Source: Arcobacter sp.
Lineage (GTDB): Bacteria; Campylobacterota; Campylobacteria; Campylobacterales; Arcobacteraceae
Length of the DNA: 64,000 nt
Reading direction: 5' to 3'
NCBI GenBank assembly: GCA_002869535.1
Contig: PKUK01000008.1
Span: 540,351 to 604,350 of the forward strand
Below are positions 37,972 to 47,334 of this stretch, piece after piece. Within the stretch, counting starts at the first letter, position 1. The number at the start of each line of letters is the position of its first letter. Made by a program: the position numbers and the translations under genes. The notes beneath the pieces were generated by a model that made no database searches, had not been told where the DNA came from, and saw only the letters and a program-made list of their open reading frames with translations.

Positions 37972-37986
37972 TTTTGTAAAAATTCT

Positions 37987-38030
37987 TTACATAGCATTTA
38001 CATAGCACCAAGATAGCATTTACGTAGCAT
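37987..38030 (+). repeat. Four tandem 11-bp repeats upstream of the ribbon-helix-helix gene
   Basis: TTACATAGCAT, TTACATAGCAC, CAAGATAGCAT and TTACGTAGCAT follow each other without a gap, sharing the core TAGCA. The 11-base period matches one helical turn, as in arrays bound by ribbon-helix-helix repressors. The 204-base gap also holds GTATAT TTT ATATAC at 38051-38065 and the hairpin at 38131-38151, but no other gene. Confidence 0.6.
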
Positions 38031-38130
38031 TTCATAAAAAACCACTAATTGTATATTTTATATACAGCTTTTAGCACTATTTTAAGTTTTACATAAGTTT
38101 CACTATGAAATAATTGCCTAATCAAAAAAA

Positions 38131-38151
38131 GGTAGTACAAAAAGTACTACC
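38131..38151. promoter_or_regulatory. Perfect inverted repeat before the ribbon-helix-helix gene
   Basis: GGTAGTAC and GTACTACC, separated by AAAAA, end 24 bases before the ATG of the ribbon-helix-helix gene. On the minus strand the hairpin is followed by six T, so it could terminate leftward transcription, but no leftward gene is present. An operator or 5' leader hairpin is equally possible. Confidence 0.45.
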
Positions 38152-38175
38152 AAAAAATAATTAGGATTTCTAACT

Positions 38176-38409
38176 ATGGCAAAGTTGAAAAATAATAGAG
38201 CTGTTATTCACAATGTTATTCACAAACACTTGAAAAAAAATAAAAAAGAAGTTTCACAACTAACTATTAAAATCAATAGTGAGCTAGATAATGCTCTTAT
38301 TATACTAAGTCAAAATCTAGGTATTTCTAAAAATAAACTTATTGAAGAGATTCTATTTGAAAGTGGGATTATCCAAGAAGTAGATGAAAATTATAGGGAA
38401 GAAGACTAA
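38176..38409 (+). CDS. Ribbon-helix-helix DNA-binding protein (CopG/antitoxin-like)
   Basis: A 77-residue protein. After a basic tail (KNNRAVIHNVIHKHLKKNKK) it has a strand QLTIKIN followed by two helices (SELDNALIILSQNL, ISKNKLIEEILFESGII), the ribbon-helix-helix layout. The acidic C-terminus is DENYREED. Its TAA overlaps the next ATG as TAATG. Small DNA-binder first, larger unknown second and a shared start resemble type II toxin-antitoxin operons, though no toxin family was recognised. Tandem repeats and a palindrome upstream are candidate binding sites. Confidence 0.72.
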   Translation: MAKLKNNRAVIHNVIHKHLKKNKKEVSQLTIKINSELDNALIILSQNLGISKNKLIEEILFESGIIQEVDENYREED

Positions 38410-39068
38410 TGAATATTTTTCCAAAACAAGAAGAAGTTATAGACGCAGTAGTTGCAGGATTGAACAAAGCAAAAAGAAACTATAGCTTTTGGACTTCAGA
38501 TGAACTATACCTTTCAAATGCTACTGAAAACTTTTTGACAATACACGTTGCGCAAGAAATAGCAAAAATAGAAGATACTCCAGAGATATTTATAGATGCA
38601 ACAGTTTCAGATATCTTAAGATGTTCCCTGCCAGACAGATCTGCTTTTAAAGAGTTTATGAAAAACAAATCTATCCAAGATAGATACTTATCAATTACCC
38701 TTGATACTAGATTTAAACACAGAACAGATAATGATTCTATATCAAAAGTAATAATGTCAGTAAGAAATGGTGTTAGAAATGCTCAAGAAGATTATAAAAA
38801 TGATATTCATCTTATATGTAAAATGTTAGAGCGATCAAATAAAGAGGACTCAACTTTAGATTATGGTTTGTTTGCTTTTTACTTAGATATTTCTAATAGT
38901 GCTAGAAAAGATGCAAAAAAAAGATTAGAAGAGATAATCAAATCTTTTGATGAGATTGTTAATTCATATGAAAATTTAAAATCAAGTTTCAAAGGAGGCG
39001 ATATAAAAAAATTAGAAAAAATTGGTGAATGGTGTATCGGTTGTTACATCATAGAACATACTTTATAA
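38409..39068 (+). CDS. Unknown protein coupled to the ribbon-helix-helix gene
   Basis: A 219-residue soluble protein. The N-terminus (EVIDAVVAGLNKAKRNYSFWTSDELYLSNATENFLTIHVAQEIAKI in outline) and the later YGLFAFYLDISN recall, from memory, a group of uncharacterised proteins with a PD-(D/E)xK nuclease-like core. The catalytic Asp and ExK of that core appear replaced here (VIMSVRN), so it may be an inactive relative. This resemblance is unverified. It overlaps the ribbon-helix-helix gene by one base and ends 21 bases before livJ, so it could be transcribed into the liv operon. Confidence 0.6.
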   Translation: MNIFPKQEEVIDAVVAGLNKAKRNYSFWTSDELYLSNATENFLTIHVAQEIAKIEDTPEIFIDATVSDILRCSLPDRSAFKEFMKNKSIQDRYLSITLDTRFKHRTDNDSISKVIMSVRNGVRNAQEDYKNDIHLICKMLERSNKEDSTLDYGLFAFYLDISNSARKDAKKRLEEIIKSFDEIVNSYENLKSSFKGGDIKKLEKIGEWCIGCYIIEHTL

Positions 39069-39089: not shown

Positions 39090-40211
39090 ATGAATTTAAA
39101 AAATATAACAAAAGCTTTTGCAGTAAGTGCAATAGTAGCTAGCTCATTATTTGCTAGTGATGTAGTAAAAATTGGTGTACAAGCACCAATTACAGGTCAA
39201 TACGCAAATGAGGGACAAAGTATAGAAAACTTTGTAAAACTTATTGTAGATGAAAAAAATGCCGAAGGTGGGCTTTTAGGTAAACAAATCGAAGTTGTAA
39301 CTTGTGATGATGAAGCTAAAGCTCAAAAAGCTGCTGTATGCGCTAAAAAACTTACAAATGCTGGTGTTATAGCTGTAATTGGTTCGTATACATCTGGTGC
39401 AACAGAAGCTGCCCAAACTACATATTACAGAAAAGGTGTTTTACAAACAAGTGATGGAACAAGTGATTCTTTAATTAAGAAGAAATATTGGACTTTCTTT
39501 AGAAACTCTTTTCCAAACTCATCACAAAGTGATTTTACAGCAGACTATATGGTAAATTCTAAAAAATACAAAAATATAGTTGTTTTATCTGATTATTCTT
39601 CTTACTCAGCAGGACTTGGTGATGCGACTGAAGCTTCAATAAAAGCAATTGGTGGAAATGTAGTTTTCAGAGGAAAAATCAAAGCAGGAACTCAAAACTT
39701 TACTGCAATGTTAACAAAAGTTAAAGCTATGAATCCAGATGTAATTTATTACTCAGGTTACTATACTGATGGCGGATTATTAAGAGCTCAACAAAAACAA
39801 TTACAAATCGATGCTGACTTTGTTGGTGGAGATTCAAACGATAACCCTGATTTTTATAAATTAGCAGGTGACGCAGCAGCAGGTACAGTTTTAATCAACT
39901 TTCCAACACCTGAAATCTTACCATACCCAGAAGCTAAAAAATATTTAGCAGCTTATAAAACTAGATTTAAAATGGATCCTCCATCAATTTGGCCAGTTAC
40001 AAATGCTGATGGATTAAGAGCTGTTATTGAAGGTGTTGAAAAAACAAAATCTTTTGATACTAAAAAAATCGCAGAATATATCAGATCTATGAAAGATTTT
40101 CCAGGGATTACTGGACCATTTAACATTAGAGAAGATGGGGAAAGAGTTGGTGCTAAATTTGTTGTTTATAAAATGAAAAATGATGGTACAAAACAAGTAG
40201 TTAGTGAATAA
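39090..40211 (+). CDS. livJ: Branched-chain amino acid ABC transporter, periplasmic binding protein
   Basis: A 373-residue exported protein with a signal peptide (about 1-23, ending SLFAS) and no lipobox. It is a type I periplasmic binding protein of the Leu/Ile/Val family: VKIGVQAPITGQYANEGQSIENFVKLIVDEKNAEGG outlines the start, with GVIAVIGSYTSGAT, VVLSDYSSYSAG and NPDVIYYSGYYTDGG. It starts the livJHMGF set with an AGAAGGG ribosome-binding site. The substrate could be branched-chain or other amino acids; the nearby putA makes proline or related compounds worth testing. Confidence 0.94.
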   Translation: MNLKNITKAFAVSAIVASSLFASDVVKIGVQAPITGQYANEGQSIENFVKLIVDEKNAEGGLLGKQIEVVTCDDEAKAQKAAVCAKKLTNAGVIAVIGSYTSGATEAAQTTYYRKGVLQTSDGTSDSLIKKKYWTFFRNSFPNSSQSDFTADYMVNSKKYKNIVVLSDYSSYSAGLGDATEASIKAIGGNVVFRGKIKAGTQNFTAMLTKVKAMNPDVIYYSGYYTDGGLLRAQQKQLQIDADFVGGDSNDNPDFYKLAGDAAAGTVLINFPTPEILPYPEAKKYLAAYKTRFKMDPPSIWPVTNADGLRAVIEGVEKTKSFDTKKIAEYIRSMKDFPGITGPFNIREDGERVGAKFVVYKMKNDGTKQVVSE

Positions 40212-40222
40212 TAAGGTTTAAT

Positions 40223-41125
40223 ATGGATACTTTACTTCAACAGTTAATAAATGGTTTAACAATAGGAAGTCTGTATGCATTAGTGGCTTTAGGTTATACA
40301 ATGGTTTACGGTGTGATGAAGTTAATCAACTTCGCACACGGTGACCTTGTTGCCTTTTCTGCTTATGTGGGATTGACTATTTTTACACAGTTTTATGGTT
40401 CAAATGCATTATCATTGGTAAATATTGTTATTGTATTTACATTAACTGCATTAGTTGTGGCTTTTGTAGGTGTTCTTCTTGAGCGTCTTGCATATAGACC
40501 TTTAAGAACGGCACCAAGGTTAAGTGCTGTAGTTTCTGCACTTGGTGCGTCACTTGTAATCCAAAATGCAATTATGCTTATTTGGGGTCCAAATATGGAA
40601 ATTTTTCCAGCTGATGTATTTCCTGCAACATCTTGGAACTTTGGTGGAGTAATTATATCGTTTACACAATTAGTTATTTTGGCTTTATCTGCTGTATTAA
40701 TGGTTTCTTTATACATTTTCATTAATAAAACAAAAATGGGAACAGCAATAAGAGCAACGGCAATTGACCAAGATGCAGCAAAACTTATGGGTATCAATGT
40801 AAACAGAGTTATTATGACTATTTTCATTATTGGTTCTATGTTAGGTGCAATTGGCGGTTTGTTTATTGGGATTTATTATAGAGGTTTAACATTTGACATG
40901 GGATGGCTTTATGGTTTAAATGCCTTTATTGCAGCTATTATTGGTGGTATTGGAAGTATTCCAGGAGCAATGCTAGGTGGGCTATTGCTAGGATTATTCA
41001 ATGCTTTAATATCAGGATATATTTCAACAGAATGGGCAGAAACATTTACATTTATTTTATTAATTATAATTTTAATTGTAAAACCAACTGGACTTCTTGG
41101 TGAAAACACAGCGGAGAAAGTATAA
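40223..41125 (+). CDS. livH: Branched-chain amino acid ABC transporter permease LivH
   Basis: A 300-residue membrane protein with about eight segments. It opens with QQLINGLTIGSLYALVALGYTMVYGVMKLINFAHGD, which is the LivH signature, and has AIDQDAAKLMGINVNRVIM as the ATPase-coupling loop, then GIYYRGLTFDMGW and GGIGSIPGAMLGG. It forms half of the membrane channel with LivM. Its stop overlaps the livM start as TAATG. Confidence 0.95.
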   Translation: MDTLLQQLINGLTIGSLYALVALGYTMVYGVMKLINFAHGDLVAFSAYVGLTIFTQFYGSNALSLVNIVIVFTLTALVVAFVGVLLERLAYRPLRTAPRLSAVVSALGASLVIQNAIMLIWGPNMEIFPADVFPATSWNFGGVIISFTQLVILALSAVLMVSLYIFINKTKMGTAIRATAIDQDAAKLMGINVNRVIMTIFIIGSMLGAIGGLFIGIYYRGLTFDMGWLYGLNAFIAAIIGGIGSIPGAMLGGLLLGLFNALISGYISTEWAETFTFILLIIILIVKPTGLLGENTAEKV

Positions 41126-42081
41126 TGAATAAAACTACAATTATTGCTACTTTATTTATAGTAGTTATGGCAGTTTTCCCATTTTTGGTTGATTCTGCAT
41201 GGCTTAGTATTGGTATTACATTTTTAGTATTTGCCGTAGTTGCTTTTTCTCAAGATATTATTTTAGGAAGAGCTGGTGTTTTTAATATGGGTCATGCAAT
41301 ATTCTTTGGGCTTGGAGCATATACTACAGCTATATTAAATATACATTTTGGTTTTGAGATTATTGAAACTGTTCCTTTTGCGATTCTAGTTCCAGTTGTT
41401 TTCTCAGTTTTACTAGCAGGACCAATTATCCACCTAAGAGGGGATTATTTACTTGTGGCAACTATTGGTTTTAATATCATATTTGAACAAGTATTATCAA
41501 ATGACGTATTTGGTTTAACAGGTGGTCCAAATGGTATTTTTGGAATTGATTTCATTAGAGTTTTTGGATATGAGTTTACAACTGATACTTCAGTTTATTA
41601 TGTTGCATTTGGATTACTGATTATAACTTTGTTTATTATAAGAAACCTAGATACATCAAAATATGGAAGAGCGTTATATTATATAAATAAAAATGAAATT
41701 GCAGCAAAATCTATGGGTATTAATATCTCATATTACAAACTTTTTGCATTTGCTTTAGGTGCTGGTATTGCTGGAGCTGCAGGTGCAGTGTTTGCAGTTC
41801 AATATTCAGCTGTAAGTCCTGAGTCTTTTAACTTTATGCAATCGGTTATGTTCTTTGCAATCGTTTTAGTTGGTGGATCAGCTTCACTTCCTGGAATTAT
41901 TATTGGTACATTTGTGATGTTTGTATTACCTGAACTGTTTACTGAGTTTAAAGAATCAAGATATTTAATTTTTGGTGCGGCTATGGTTCTTACTATGATT
42001 TTAAGACCAAATGGTGTTTGGCCAGCTACTTTTGGAAATATCCCAAAATTTCTTAAAAAGAAAGCAAGGGAGGCAAAATAA
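41125..42081 (+). CDS. livM: Branched-chain amino acid ABC transporter permease LivM
   Basis: A 318-residue membrane protein with about nine segments. LivM signatures are ILGRAGVFNMGHAIFFGLGAYT, LRGDYLLVATIGFNIIFEQV, FGLTGGPNGI and the coupling loop NKNEIAAKSMGINISYYKL followed by GGSASLPGIIIGT. It pairs with LivH. Both ends overlap the neighbours by one base as TAATG, so the operon is tightly coupled. Confidence 0.95.
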   Translation: MNKTTIIATLFIVVMAVFPFLVDSAWLSIGITFLVFAVVAFSQDIILGRAGVFNMGHAIFFGLGAYTTAILNIHFGFEIIETVPFAILVPVVFSVLLAGPIIHLRGDYLLVATIGFNIIFEQVLSNDVFGLTGGPNGIFGIDFIRVFGYEFTTDTSVYYVAFGLLIITLFIIRNLDTSKYGRALYYINKNEIAAKSMGINISYYKLFAFALGAGIAGAAGAVFAVQYSAVSPESFNFMQSVMFFAIVLVGGSASLPGIIIGTFVMFVLPELFTEFKESRYLIFGAAMVLTMILRPNGVWPATFGNIPKFLKKKAREAK

Positions 42082-42860
42082 TGAAATATGTATTAGAAAT
42101 AACAAATGTTTCAAAGTTTTTCCATGGATTAGTTGCAATTGATGACTTAACTATTAACGTAAAACCTGGTCAAATATATGGAATCATTGGTCCAAATGGT
42201 GCTGGTAAAACTACACTTTTTAACTGTGTAACAGGTATTTATACTCCAGAACAAGGAACTATAAAATATAAAGGTGAAGATATAACAGGAATGGCTCCAC
42301 ACAAAATTGCCCAAAGGGGAGTTTTAAGAACATTTCAAAATATTCGTCTTTTTAAAGAGATGAGTGTTGCTGAAAATATCATTGCTGGATGTCATACAAA
42401 ATCAAACAAAAAATGGTACCACGCTATCTTTCACACTCCTTTTTATAAAAAAGATGAAAGTAGACAGTGGGAAAAAGTTGCTGAATTGATGGATTTCTTT
42501 GGATTGACAAAACATGCTAATACTCCAGCAGGAGATTTATCATATGGAAATCAGAGAAAAATAGAGATGGCAAGAGCACTTGCAGCTGAACCTGAACTTC
42601 TTATTTTAGATGAACCAGCCGCTGGACTTAATGAAAATGAAACAATAGAACTTACAAATATCATCTTAAAAATAAAAGAGATGGGACTTGGAATTATGAT
42701 GATTGAACATGATATGGATATGGTTATGAAATTAACTGATTATATTACTGTTATAAACTTTGGAAAAGAGATTTCTCAAGGTCTACCATCATTTGTTCAA
42801 GATGACCCAAAAGTAGTTGAAGCATATATTGGAATAGACGATGATGAGGAGGATGCATAA
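42081..42860 (+). CDS. livG: Branched-chain amino acid ABC transporter ATPase LivG
   Basis: A 259-residue ABC ATPase. Walker A is GPNGAGKTTLFNCVTG, the Q-loop region has RTFQNIRLFKEM, the signature is LSYGNQRKIEMARAL, Walker B is LLILDEPAAGLN, and the switch His is in MMIEHDMDMVM. The long C-terminal tail ending YIGIDDDEEDA is typical of LivG. It energises transport together with LivF. It overlaps livF by one base. Confidence 0.95.
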   Translation: MKYVLEITNVSKFFHGLVAIDDLTINVKPGQIYGIIGPNGAGKTTLFNCVTGIYTPEQGTIKYKGEDITGMAPHKIAQRGVLRTFQNIRLFKEMSVAENIIAGCHTKSNKKWYHAIFHTPFYKKDESRQWEKVAELMDFFGLTKHANTPAGDLSYGNQRKIEMARALAAEPELLILDEPAAGLNENETIELTNIILKIKEMGLGIMMIEHDMDMVMKLTDYITVINFGKEISQGLPSFVQDDPKVVEAYIGIDDDEEDA

Positions 42861-43582
42861 TGGTAAATAACGAAGTATTATTAGAGATTAGAGATCTTCA
42901 TGTATCTTATGGGGCAATATCTGCTATTAAGGGTATTTCTTTAAAAGTATTAAAAGGAGAAGTTGTAACAATACTTGGTGCAAATGGTGCTGGTAAAACT
43001 ACAACTTTACAAACAATATCTGGACTTTTAAAAGCAAAATCATGAAGTATAATTTTTGATAAAAATGATATTACAAAATCTGAAGCTCACGATGTTGTAG
43101 GACTTGGAATGTCACATTCTCCTGAAGGAAGAAGAGTTTTTGGAACACTAACAGTTGAAGAAAACCTTATGATGGGAGCATATACATTAAAGGACCATGA
43201 TAAAGAGACTTTGGAATGGATTTACGATATTTTACCAAGATTAAAAGAGAGAAAAAAACAACTTGCAGGAACTCTAAGTGGTGGTGAGCAACAAATGCTT
43301 GCAATTGGAAGAGCTATTATGAGTAAACCTAAACTTTTAATCTTAGATGAGCCATCACTTGGACTTGCACCAATTTTAATTAAGGCAATTTTTAAAGCAG
43401 TAAAAGAGATTGCACTAAGTGGAGTTACAGTTTTATTAGTTGAACAAAATGCAAAAGCAGCGCTAAAATTAGCAGATCGTGCTTATGTATTAGAAGTTGG
43501 GAAAATCACACATGAAGGAACTGCTGAAGAGTTATTAAACTCTAAGACAATTCAAGAAGCCTATTTAGGGAAAAAGCATTAA
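42860..43582 (+). pseudogene. livF: Branched-chain amino acid ABC transporter ATPase LivF interrupted by an in-frame TGA
   Basis: The 241-codon frame is a complete LivF: Walker A ILGANGAGKTTTLQTISG, Q-loop and MSHSPEGRRVFGTLTVEENL, signature LSGGEQQMLAIGRAI, Walker B LLILDEPSLGLAP, switch VLLVEQNAKAAL. A TGA at 43043-43045 falls in LKAKS-stop-SIIFDKNDIT, where relatives have Gly, so GGA to TGA is the likely origin. Translation would stop just after Walker A, and a restart at the ATG at 43109 would lack it. Without LivF the transporter would have only LivG. Confidence 0.88.
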
Positions 43583-43764: not shown

Positions 43765-46700
43765 ATGATAAATGAAACAAAAATTATAGATTCAGCTATA
43801 GAATTAGCTGAAAAATGGCAAAACAGAGCTACAGAACTTGTAAGTGACTACGATAGAGAATTCTATGTAAAAATGAATAAAATGCTTGATCATCCAAAAG
43901 ATAAAGCACTTTTAATTGAGTTGATGGATCAATGTTTTAGATGTGATTCAAATGCAAGAGTTGCTGACCAAATCATTTTTCTTTTAGAAAAGCATGGTAT
44001 GGCACATTTCTTTACAACAAAAGATAAAACACTTCTATGGTTATTCCAAAACTTCGGTAAATTTTTACCAAACTTATCTGTTCCTATGTTTGTAGACCAA
44101 ATAAGAGAAGATACAAAAACAGTAGTTATTAAAGGAGAGGCAGGGCCTTTTAATAAACACTTAATCATGAGAAAAGAAGAAGGTACAAGAGTTAATATCA
44201 ATCTTATTGGTGAAGTAGTACTTGGTGAAGAAGAAGCCAGTGAAAGAATGGAAAAATATTTAAAAGCTTTAAGTAATCCAAATATTGACTATATTTCTAT
44301 CAAAATCTCAACAATTTACTCTCAAATCAATCCTTTAAATTTTGAGCATACAGTTGAAGTACTTGTTGAAAAATTAACTAAAATATATGAACAAGCAATC
44401 AAGTATCCTTATATAGCTCCAGATGGAACAAAATCAAATAAATTTATCAATCTTGATATGGAAGAGTATAGAGATTTAGCTATTACTGTTGAAGTATTCA
44501 AAAGAACATTAGATAAACCACAATTTAAAAACTTCTATGCAGGTATTGTTTTACAAGCATATGTTCCAGATTCATTTTTAGTACAAAAAGATTTATTGGC
44601 TTGGGCAAAAGCAAGAGTAGAAAATGGTGGAGCTCCTATGAAGTTTAGACTTGTAAAAGGTGCTAACATGGAGATGGAAGAGACTGAAGCTAGTCAAAAA
44701 CATTGGGAAATGGTTACTTATACTGATAAAAGTGATACAGATTCTAACTACAAAAGAATGGCAAGATATGCACTAGATCCAGAAAATGCAAAATATATGC
44801 ATATAGGAACTGCATCTCATAACTTATTTGAGTTAGCATATGCTACAACATTAGCACAAGAAAATAATACATCTGAATATCATACATTAGAGATGTTAGA
44901 AGGTATGAGTGAAGCTGCAAGATTAGCAATTAGAGAGATTTCTAAATCAGTAATTTTATATGCTCCAACAGCAGCAAAAGAACAGTTTACAAATGCAATT
45001 GCATATTTAGTAAGAAGACTTGATGAAAATACAGGTCCTGATAACTTTATTAGATACTCATTTGGTCTAACTGTTGGTTCAAAAGATTGGAATATGCAAA
45101 AAGAGTTATTTATAAAATCTTTTGAAAATGAAAAAACTTCATTCGTAGGTTCAAAAAGAACTCAAAATAGACTTGAAGAAAAATGGGATGATTTTTCTCA
45201 TTCATCTTATGATACAAAAGATTATCATGCGGAAGCTGATACTGATTTTATTTTAGCAAAAAACCAAGAGTGGGCTAAAAATATTGTTAAAAAATGGAAA
45301 TTTTCTAAAGACACTGAACATAAAATCACTCCTATTGTTGTAGGTGGTGTTGATATAACTGAAGATAGAAAAGTTGTAGAAGCTATTGATAAGTCTCAAA
45401 TAATAGATGGTGTTCTTGCAGGTAAATTTGCAAATGCGAATGCAGAAGACCTTAAAAAAGCAGTAGAAGTTGCTCGTGATGATGTTGACGGTTGGAGAAG
45501 TTTAACTCATGAACAAAGACATGCTGCACTAAAACTTGCTGCTATAAAAGTGCGTGAGAGAAGAGATGATTTAATAGGTGTTGCTGCTGCTGAAGTTGGT
45601 AAAGTTTTTACAGAGACTGATGTAGAAGTTTCTGAAGCTGTTGACTTTTTAGAATTCTATCCATATAGCGCAGACTATTTTGATAAATATGAAAACTTAG
45701 AATTTACAGGAAAAGGTGTAGGTGTAGTAGTTCCACCATGGAACTTCCCTGTTGCTATTCCTTTAGGTGGAGTTGCTGCAACTTTAGCTGCTGGTAATAC
45801 AGTTATTATAAAACCAGCTTCAGTTGCTGCTTTAACAGCATATGAGATGTGTAAATGTTTCTGGGATGCTGGTATTTCTAAAAATGTACTTCAATTTGTT
45901 CCTTGTCCAGGAGCACTTGCTGGTGAACATTTAATTGCAAATAAAGATGTTGACTTTGTAATCTTAACAGGTGGAGAAGATACAGCGGCAACTATGCTTA
46001 AAACTAGACCAGACTTATTCTTAACAGCAGAAACTGGTGGAAAAGATGCAACTATTGTTACAAATATGGCAGATAGAGAACAAGCCATTAAAAATGTATG
46101 TCAAAGTGCCTTTGCAAATTCAGGTCAAAAATGTTCTGCGACTTCACTTTTAGTTTTAGAAGAAGAAGTTTATAATGATGAAGGCTTCAAAAAAGCACTA
46201 TTAGATACTGCAAAATCTATGAGTGTAGGTTCTGTTTGGGATTTCAAAAATAGAATTGGAACTTTAGCAAACCCTGTATCTGGAAACCTTAAAAAAGCTA
46301 TTAGTGAACTAGAAGGTAATGAAGAGTGGCTGTTAGCTCCTGAATATGCAGAAGATAATGAATATATGTTAAAACCTGCAATTAAATGGGGTGTAAGTGA
46401 AGGTAACTTTATCCATATGAATGAGCTATTTGGACCAGTGCTTGCTGTTGTAAAAGCAAAAGATTTAAAACATGCTGTAAAAATTGTAAATGATACTGGC
46501 TATGGTTTAACTTCTGGGATTGAATCACTAGATGAGAGAGAAGTTTCATATTGGAGAGAAAACCTAAAAGCAGGTAATTTATACATAAATAGAGGTACAA
46601 CTGGAGCAATAGTTATCAGACAACCTTTTGGTGGTATGGGTAAATCTGCAATTGGTGCAGGAAGAAAAGTTGGTATATTTAATTATATTACACAATTTGT

Positions 46701-47334
46701 TGATTTTAAAGAAAATTCTCTTCCAAAAGTTAAAAGAAATCATAATAATGAATTAACAAGATTTATCGCTGATTGTAAATATTCAAAAAACAATAAAGAA
46801 GATTTTGAAAAACTTGAAATTGCATTACAATCATATTTAGAAAACTATGATAATGAATTCTCACAAGAGAAAGATTATTGTAAAGTTAGAGGTGAAGATA
46901 ACCACTTTAGATATCTGCCTTTAAAAAATGTAGTTATAAGAGTTTCAGGTGATGATTCTATATTTGAAGCAGTTGCAAGAATATTGGCAGCAATTGTATC
47001 AGGTGTAGAATTTAAAGTATCAGTAGATAATAATAAACTAGTTAAGTCATTCTTGGAAGAAGCAACAATTTTATTCAAAGGAAATAATACTTTAGTTGAA
47101 GAAGATGATAAAAAATTCTTAAAAACTATTGCTAACTTTGATAGAGTTATTTATTCAAATATCTCTAAAGTATCAACAGCAGTATTTGAAGAATCTGTTA
47201 AATCTTTGACATTTATTGTAAGACAACCTGTAATGATGGAAGGAAGATTAGAACTCTTAAATTACTTTATTGAGCAATCAATTTCTCACTCTTTTCATAG
47301 ATATGGAAATATAGGAGCTAGAGAAATAAAATAA
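43765..47334 (+). CDS. putA: Bifunctional proline dehydrogenase / P5C dehydrogenase PutA
   Basis: A 1189-residue trifunctional-type layout without the N-terminal ribbon-helix-helix, so it is not a DNA-binding repressor. The proline dehydrogenase barrel spans about 100-450 (KISTIYSQINPLNFEH, RLVKGANMEMEE, GTASHNLFELAYA, YAPTAAKEQFTNAIAYLVRRLDEN in outline). The aldehyde dehydrogenase part spans about 500-1000, with VVVPPWNFPVAIPLGG, TAETGGKDATIVTN, catalytic Cys in NSGQKCSATSLLVL and NELFGPVLAVV. It oxidises proline to glutamate, feeding electrons to quinones. It has its own AAGGA site and a terminal hairpin. Confidence 0.95.
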   Translation: MINETKIIDSAIELAEKWQNRATELVSDYDREFYVKMNKMLDHPKDKALLIELMDQCFRCDSNARVADQIIFLLEKHGMAHFFTTKDKTLLWLFQNFGKFLPNLSVPMFVDQIREDTKTVVIKGEAGPFNKHLIMRKEEGTRVNINLIGEVVLGEEEASERMEKYLKALSNPNIDYISIKISTIYSQINPLNFEHTVEVLVEKLTKIYEQAIKYPYIAPDGTKSNKFINLDMEEYRDLAITVEVFKRTLDKPQFKNFYAGIVLQAYVPDSFLVQKDLLAWAKARVENGGAPMKFRLVKGANMEMEETEASQKHWEMVTYTDKSDTDSNYKRMARYALDPENAKYMHIGTASHNLFELAYATTLAQENNTSEYHTLEMLEGMSEAARLAIREISKSVILYAPTAAKEQFTNAIAYLVRRLDENTGPDNFIRYSFGLTVGSKDWNMQKELFIKSFENEKTSFVGSKRTQNRLEEKWDDFSHSSYDTKDYHAEADTDFILAKNQEWAKNIVKKWKFSKDTEHKITPIVVGGVDITEDRKVVEAIDKSQIIDGVLAGKFANANAEDLKKAVEVARDDVDGWRSLTHEQRHAALKLAAIKVRERRDDLIGVAAAEVGKVFTETDVEVSEAVDFLEFYPYSADYFDKYENLEFTGKGVGVVVPPWNFPVAIPLGGVAATLAAGNTVIIKPASVAALTAYEMCKCFWDAGISKNVLQFVPCPGALAGEHLIANKDVDFVILTGGEDTAATMLKTRPDLFLTAETGGKDATIVTNMADREQAIKNVCQSAFANSGQKCSATSLLVLEEEVYNDEGFKKALLDTAKSMSVGSVWDFKNRIGTLANPVSGNLKKAISELEGNEEWLLAPEYAEDNEYMLKPAIKWGVSEGNFIHMNELFGPVLAVVKAKDLKHAVKIVNDTGYGLTSGIESLDEREVSYWRENLKAGNLYINRGTTGAIVIRQPFGGMGKSAIGAGRKVGIFNYITQFVDFKENSLPKVKRNHNNELTRFIADCKYSKNNKEDFEKLEIALQSYLENYDNEFSQEKDYCKVRGEDNHFRYLPLKNVVIRVSGDDSIFEAVARILAAIVSGVEFKVSVDNNKLVKSFLEEATILFKGNNTLVEEDDKKFLKTIANFDRVIYSNISKVSTAVFEESVKSLTFIVRQPVMMEGRLELLNYFIEQSISHSFHRYGNIGAREIK

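Follow-up and report, generated by a model that had tools for sequence, protein, structure and literature searches.

A two-gene unit of an Arcobacter genome, encoding a small, probable ribbon-helix-helix protein (X) and an uncharacterised partner (Y), is most likely an on-off switch of the genes for proline uptake and use in free-living relatives of Campylobacter, rather than a toxin-antitoxin pair. We regard it as probable that transcription of the proline-use genes is switched by X and Y, acting as a two-protein system dedicated to this task. The computational analysis described herein established the linkage of the pair to the proline catabolic gene putA, the co-occurrence of these genes across genomes, a conserved DNA site that moves with the putative target genes, and the homology of Y to nuclease-like proteins together with the loss of its active site.

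Locus organization and linkage of the X-Y pair to putA

The analysed DNA (hereafter the window) was a stretch of 64,000 nucleotides from an Arcobacter genome of 2.68 Mb, and the features of interest within it are summarized in Table 1. The layout described in the initial annotation, in which direct repeats, a palindrome and the coupled genes precede livJ, was confirmed from the sequence and its open reading frames, including the translational coupling of the two genes with the small DNA-binding gene placed first, where the stop codon of X and the start codon of Y overlap in TAATG. X and Y are conserved in related genera and are thus real genes rather than chance reading frames. The livF gene forms a single full reading frame in relatives, and the internal stop found here may be either a real mutation or a sequencing error; a nosZ-like frame elsewhere in the same genome (L274) was also interrupted.

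Table 1. Positions of the genes and DNA elements of the X-Y locus within the window.
Feature	Position	Strand	Remark
Four 11-bp direct repeats, TAGCA core	37986..38036	+	probably a box of the response-regulator type; not confined to X-Y
Extended -10-like element TGAAATAAT, conserved	38106..38114	+	upstream of many Arcobacteraceae X genes
Predicted operator, two GTANTAC units with centres 12 bp apart	38132..38150	+	conserved upstream of X
X, 77 aa, predicted ribbon-helix-helix protein and repressor	38176..38409	+	
Y, 219 aa, PD-(D/E)xK-derived without catalytic acids, predicted partner of X	38409..39068	+	
livJ-like periplasmic binding protein, predicted target operon	39090..40211	+	
livH	40223-41125	+	gene order livHMG conserved
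livM	41125-42081	+	
livG	42081-42860	+	
livF reading frame, in-frame stop at codon 62	42860..43582	+	
putA, proline dehydrogenase / glutamate-semialdehyde dehydrogenase without ribbon-helix-helix domain, predicted target	43765..47334	+	

Presence or absence of the pair in relatives was assessed in 100 genomes. Y gave matches in 32 of them at E <= 0.001, three of which (G022, G077 and G082) were weak and partial, leaving 29 genomes with a full-length Y; X was found in exactly these 29, the genome of the window included. The putA gene was present in 36 genomes, comprising all 29 with X-Y and 7 of the 71 others (Fisher 6.7e-19, relatedness ignored). The seven putA genomes devoid of X-Y indicated that the switch is dispensable. 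In a class-wide draw, Y was detected in 24 of 298 genomes, 5 of these by weak partial matches only. X and Y were found side by side both in Arcobacteraceae and in genomes of the Sulfurospirillum type, and the public records containing Y were labelled, among others, Poseidonibacter, Halarcobacter, Malaciobacter and Arcobacter, all genera of the Arcobacteraceae, as well as Sulfurospirillum. No match to Y was obtained in 72,556 plasmid records or 50,697 phage records, nor was any found in viral contigs by a peptide-pattern search.

The gene neighbourhood was then compared in a redundant set of 78 fetched loci carrying 80 Y genes. In 52 cases, the pair preceded livJ with putA further downstream, and in another 9 it preceded livJ in a fetched piece that stops before putA. 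Eleven pairs had no livJ, with putA downstream either directly or after another amino-acid ABC transporter set, and two (L056 and L151) were divergent from putA, with liv running the other way. Two pairs were second copies, located before the citrulline hydrolase gene ctlX (L037) and before ornithine cyclodeaminase and arginase genes (L043). The remaining four Y genes, which represent two genomes each seen twice, had no adjacent X and preceded ctlX, ornithine cyclodeaminase, an amino-acid ABC set and arginase, the last named from a family model whose cut-off it narrowly misses. These two genomes, G032 and G042, are of one genus and also possessed a normal pair; no X was found adjoining their extra Y, which in G032 lies only 235 bp from the upstream contig end, and both extra genes had only 3-mismatch matches to the operator described below.

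The second pairs and lone Y genes were thus observed near genes for arginine use (L037:16868-18980, L043:2980-3900, L059:6969-8577 and L060:236-6702), and it seems that the X-Y switch was copied to arginine use. Arginase, ornithine cyclodeaminase and PutA form the route from arginine through proline to glutamate, and the contexts of X-Y therefore fall on one pathway.

All 31 places at which X was found adjoined a Y place, and the two genes were duplicated together in L037 and L043. Over 26 loci, the distances among X correlated with those among Y (Mantel r 0.76), and those among Y with those among PutA (r 0.71). On account of this constant adjacency, joint duplication and correlated divergence, Y is most likely the partner of X.

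A conserved putative operator and a separate repeat element

The palindrome upstream of X spans positions 38131-38151 and contains the core GTANTAC-N5-GTANTAC. This core was the sole exact match in the window, which held four further matches at two mismatches (5 in total vs a shuffle mean of 1.75), and also the sole exact match in the whole genome, where four other places carried one mismatch. Among 61 regions upstream of X (L137 and L149 were dropped owing to runs of N), the site was exact in 39 and had one mismatch in 11, two in 6, three in 2 and four in 3. At most one mismatch was thereby found in 50 of the 61 regions vs 0.08% of dinucleotide shuffles; the 11 regions with at least two mismatches include L138 and L140, whose X start is misplaced. 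The distance from the beginning of the operator to the start codon of X is 33 to 49 bp. The -10-like element upstream of it was not picked up by a simple sigma-70 scan.

In both L056 and L151, an exact site lies 37 bp upstream of the putA frame and a 2-mismatch site upstream of livJ (-83 and -90, respectively), whereas the best matches before X have four and three mismatches. When the genes are split, the site thus stands before putA and, in weaker form, before livJ, and not before X, indicating that it follows the metabolic targets. The suspicion, voiced in the initial annotation, that the pair might regulate the transporter is counted as right. Both second copies of X-Y (L037 and L043) also possessed an exact operator.

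In 12 chosen X-Y genomes, 18 exact sites were found vs 7 for a reversed-pattern control. X was the gene that followed in 12 cases, a TRAP transporter gene in 2 and putA in 1, while the other 3 sites were inside genes. G001 had no exact site, its X site carrying one mismatch. No exact site was present in five putA loci scanned from putA genomes lacking X-Y (the putA fragments of G018 and G029 were left out), and the surroundings of livJ in G006, a genome without X-Y, contained no site at up to two mismatches.

Sites before TRAP genes were counted separately. At up to one mismatch, such a site was present in 9 of 28 X-Y genomes vs 1 of 20 without the pair; the single genome of the latter group was 74% complete and carried a fragment of putA. 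This count left out 10 of 40 matched genomes, none with X-Y, and all second copies except that of G052, and covered only 175 bp upstream in G059. The association with X-Y is modest (P 0.031 at up to one mismatch and 0.0068 at up to two, relatedness ignored). Operators situated approximately 155-190 bp before a TRAP transporter gene were observed in several X-Y genomes, at L175:1501-1519, L211:3100, L220, L221 and L250, and some TRAP genes were preceded by three tandem units, that is, overlapping sites with the same 12-bp step. In G004, the TRAP binding-protein gene adjoins a divergent gene that reads from its sequence as glutamate-synthase-like.

The palindrome noted earlier before X thus proved to be real and conserved. 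The "iteron-like" repeats noted alongside it were equally confirmed, although a role as the site of X is improbable for them. Tandem Repeats Finder reported a period of 11 with 4.7 copies, with exact TAGCA at 37992, 38003, 38014 and 38025. A TAGCA pair with 11-bp spacing occurred in 26 of the 61 upstream regions, in two copies vs the four of the window, and was absent from the upstream regions of the Sulfurospirillum-labelled loci. The pattern ATAGCA-N5-ATAGCA was found seven times in the genome of the window, vs 0 for a reversed control, and only two of these copies belong to the present locus. The other five (L270, L271, L274, L275 and L276) stand before operons whose genes read as NiFe hydrogenase small subunit, DUF485/acetate permease, nosZ, Tat-signal oxidoreductase and pyruvate:ferredoxin oxidoreductase (por). 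Since the repeats recur before such unrelated operons, they are probably not the site of X, and an iteron or replication origin was rejected for the same reason. Response regulators of the OmpR/PhoB type usually have sites laid out as 11-bp direct repeats, and the repeats found here therefore probably serve a separate and wider control. Their recurrence before the five other operons suggests a response-regulator regulon.

Sequence and structural features of X and Y

X showed weak similarity to Pfam RHH_3 (E 0.013, failing the cut-off of the model) and to the PHROG Arc-like repressor family (E 0.0017), while a PDB sequence search returned nothing significant. The ribbon-helix-helix pattern was nevertheless kept across 17 aligned X sequences, so that the first description of the small gene as CopG/ribbon-helix-helix-like is probably right. 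No BLASTP alignment was obtained between X and E. coli PutA in its ribbon-helix-helix part (residues 1-60), and the idea that X is a detached piece of PutA was rejected accordingly.

With regard to Y, searches against Pfam, NCBIfam and PHROG gave no match near significance. A Pfam scan of 32 Y sequences produced nothing but weak hits dispersed over unrelated models. The best of them (E 6.1e-4) occurred in 2 members and the most frequent, to a CATSPERE model, in 19 (best E 0.0057), while the Y of the window had no match at 0.1. A single weak PADLOC match to the PtuA ATPase (residues 87-192, E 5.2e-4, 17.1 bits) was judged spurious, and the placement of Y in a defence module was discarded.

Homologues of Y with an intact nuclease motif (GRxD...IEVK) are present in the same order of bacteria, the nearest being those of L108, L109, L110, L183, L184, L185 and L189. 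Y aligned with one intact relative at E 3e-14 and 30% identity, an intact relative matched the Y of the window in the reciprocal search (E 2.2e-9), and the profile-profile comparison with hhalign gave a probability of 99.1 and E 1.1e-18 over most of the chain. As judged from this homology, Y descends from intact PD-(D/E)xK proteins and has lost the active-site acids. Residues were counted in 64 distinct Y sequences, the window's included, and in six intact relatives, with L186, L183 and L189 left out. E40 was kept in 5 of the 64 Y, D95 in 1, E117 (the glutamate of ExK) in none and K119 in 38; the Y of the window is among the five with E40, the only one of the three catalytic acids that it retains. 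All four motif residues were present in the six intact relatives extracted and invariant in a seven-sequence alignment (A5). Among the selected columns for which conservation was tabulated, W28 was invariant in Y and common to the intact relatives, E59, L98 and D99 were invariant in Y, and H46 and Q49 nearly so.

The models of Y and of an intact relative (pLDDT 94.3 and 78.1, respectively) resemble each other in the order of their helices and strands, and structural comparison of Y with the PDB was led by the restriction-fold structure 3ijm (Z 7.2, rmsd 4.3, 118 aligned), with NgoMIV at Z 6.3 (rmsd 4.3, 160 aligned); a restriction-fold structure also topped the list for the intact relative (Z 6.5). 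All these scores are middling, and methyltransferases and other folds followed closely for both proteins. Foldseek retrieved nothing from the PDB for Y at E <= 0.001; methyltransferases, a designed fold and SpoVS ranked highest. In a viral structure library, a single row, from a giant virus, reached E <= 0.001, and some PD-(D/E)xK rows stood lower; PDB sequence searches with Y and with the intact relative L109 returned nothing significant. In view of the Foldseek result, it is sequence similarity that underlies the assignment of Y to PD-(D/E)xK. The suspected resemblance of Y to PD-(D/E)xK proteins with lost catalytic residues was thus upheld by homology and residue counts, and the profile comparison and structure prediction proposed as a check gave the hhalign result and the restriction-fold rows just described. 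Y resembles the superfamily in its homology over most of the chain and its similar element order, and differs from it by the lost acids and by the linkage to X and putA.

Three of the intact relatives (L108:5156-5773, L109:5870-6484 and L110:5157-5762) matched the phage P2 Tin family (PADLOC PDLC02359; E 6.5e-11, 3e-10 and 6.2e-6), whereas Y itself had no match at E up to 1, and L108, like Y, was without a match in the phage records. These matches to an anti-phage model hint at possible membership of Tin in the PD-(D/E)xK superfamily.

Proposed regulation of proline use and alternative explanations

PutA of the trifunctional type, which contains a ribbon-helix-helix domain, uses this N-terminal domain to repress the put regulon, and its function changes with the conditions in the cell (PMC5293562). 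In the PutA of the window, no ribbon-helix-helix domain is fused to the enzyme: Pfam matches were confined to the enzyme domains Pro_dh (132-430) and Aldedh (545-979), and the alignment with E. coli PutA begins at residue 137, corresponding to residue 276 of the latter. The two systems are alike in that a ribbon-helix-helix protein is tied to putA, here as a predicted repressor of proline catabolism and uptake. They differ in that the DNA-binding part is separate here and has a second partner, PutA is without the N-terminal part, the operator is a tandem pair of GTANTAC units, and X gave no BLASTP alignment to the 60 N-terminal residues of the E. coli protein. Considering a separate X beside a PutA devoid of the domain, and a site that follows the -10 element and, in the split loci, precedes putA and livJ, X is best read as the missing regulator, and the pair would supply in trans what the fused domain does for enterobacterial PutA.

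In the proposed mechanism, tandem dimers of X would occupy the two GTANTAC units, which directly follow the -10 element, and X would thereby block transcription of X-Y-livJHMGF and putA, repression rather than activation being the mode that we infer; in some relatives, it may also block the promoter of the TRAP transporter. Y, co-translated with X, would bind X in a putative complex and either sense the state of the pathway, with proline or its product as the presumed ligand, or complete the repressor complex, and the liv system would carry proline.

The reading of the pair as a type II module, with X as antitoxin and autorepressor and Y as toxin, was suggested by its gene order, the small size of its first gene, the coupling and a palindrome near the promoter that looks autoregulatory, and ribbon-helix-helix antitoxins are described as common (PMC2701414). 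X-Y is instead chromosomal, in fixed synteny with the putA and liv metabolic genes, and without the mobile, patchy distribution expected of such modules: Y is unmatched in the plasmid and phage collections, the pair co-occurs with putA in 29 of 29 genomes, and the operator, common to putA and livJ, is found before these and not before X when they are split. In addition, the ancestral active-site acids have gone from nearly all Y, and Y occurs without a neighbouring X in two genomes. We thus consider a toxin-antitoxin module very improbable and rejected it on distribution, linkage and operator position. Instead of being an operator, the palindrome could act at the RNA level as a terminator or attenuator, and it does score as a terminator-like hairpin, with a T run, on the minus strand. 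The variable central bases of its units, however, do not covary (12 of 40 Watson-Crick pairs vs 10.35 expected, among 40 exact sites including that of L137), which shows that DNA rather than an RNA stem is conserved, and the three tandem units before some TRAP genes are not explained by a hairpin; this explanation is hardly credible.

Two other explanations change the part played by one or both proteins. X could be the whole regulator, with Y a co-transcribed enzyme or chaperone of amino-acid catabolism outside the switch, as would fit the invariant E59, L98 and D99 of Y and its occurrence without adjacent X before ctlX-ornithine cyclodeaminase-ABC-arginase in two genomes. The invariable adjacency of X to Y, the duplication of the two as a pair and their correlated distances argue against a bystander role, which appears rather unlikely. 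Alternatively, X-Y might activate its targets, or control only itself, with the liv-putA linkage as a by-product of operon structure; the majority of the exact sites are indeed before X. Against this stand the displaced sites of L056 and L151, the modest enrichment of TRAP-gene sites in X-Y genomes and a position just downstream of the -10 element, which fits repression, and we accordingly find activation or self-control distinctly unlikely.

With the two-protein repressor of proline use as the preferred reading, a more far-reaching scenario can be put forward tentatively, as a possibility on which we would not yet rely: a dead restriction-fold protein may have become the sensing half of a two-protein repressor that rebuilds PutA-type, proline-responsive self-repression in trans, and a copy of the pair, together with an operator of its own, may have been placed before arginine/citrulline genes.

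Proline is among the important amino-acid fuels in the phylum, as described for C. jejuni, in which PutA and PutP are needed for proline use, in an account whose passages on this subject name no regulator (PMC3511319). A literature search (below full-text level) found no description of the X-Y pair and no account, in this phylum, of the control of a PutA without its own DNA-binding domain. If the proposed switch is true, it would identify what regulates proline use, at which DNA site and with which target genes, and Y would provide a case of a nuclease fold turned regulatory subunit. More generally, a ribbon-helix-helix gene with an uncharacterised partner does not by itself make a toxin-antitoxin system.
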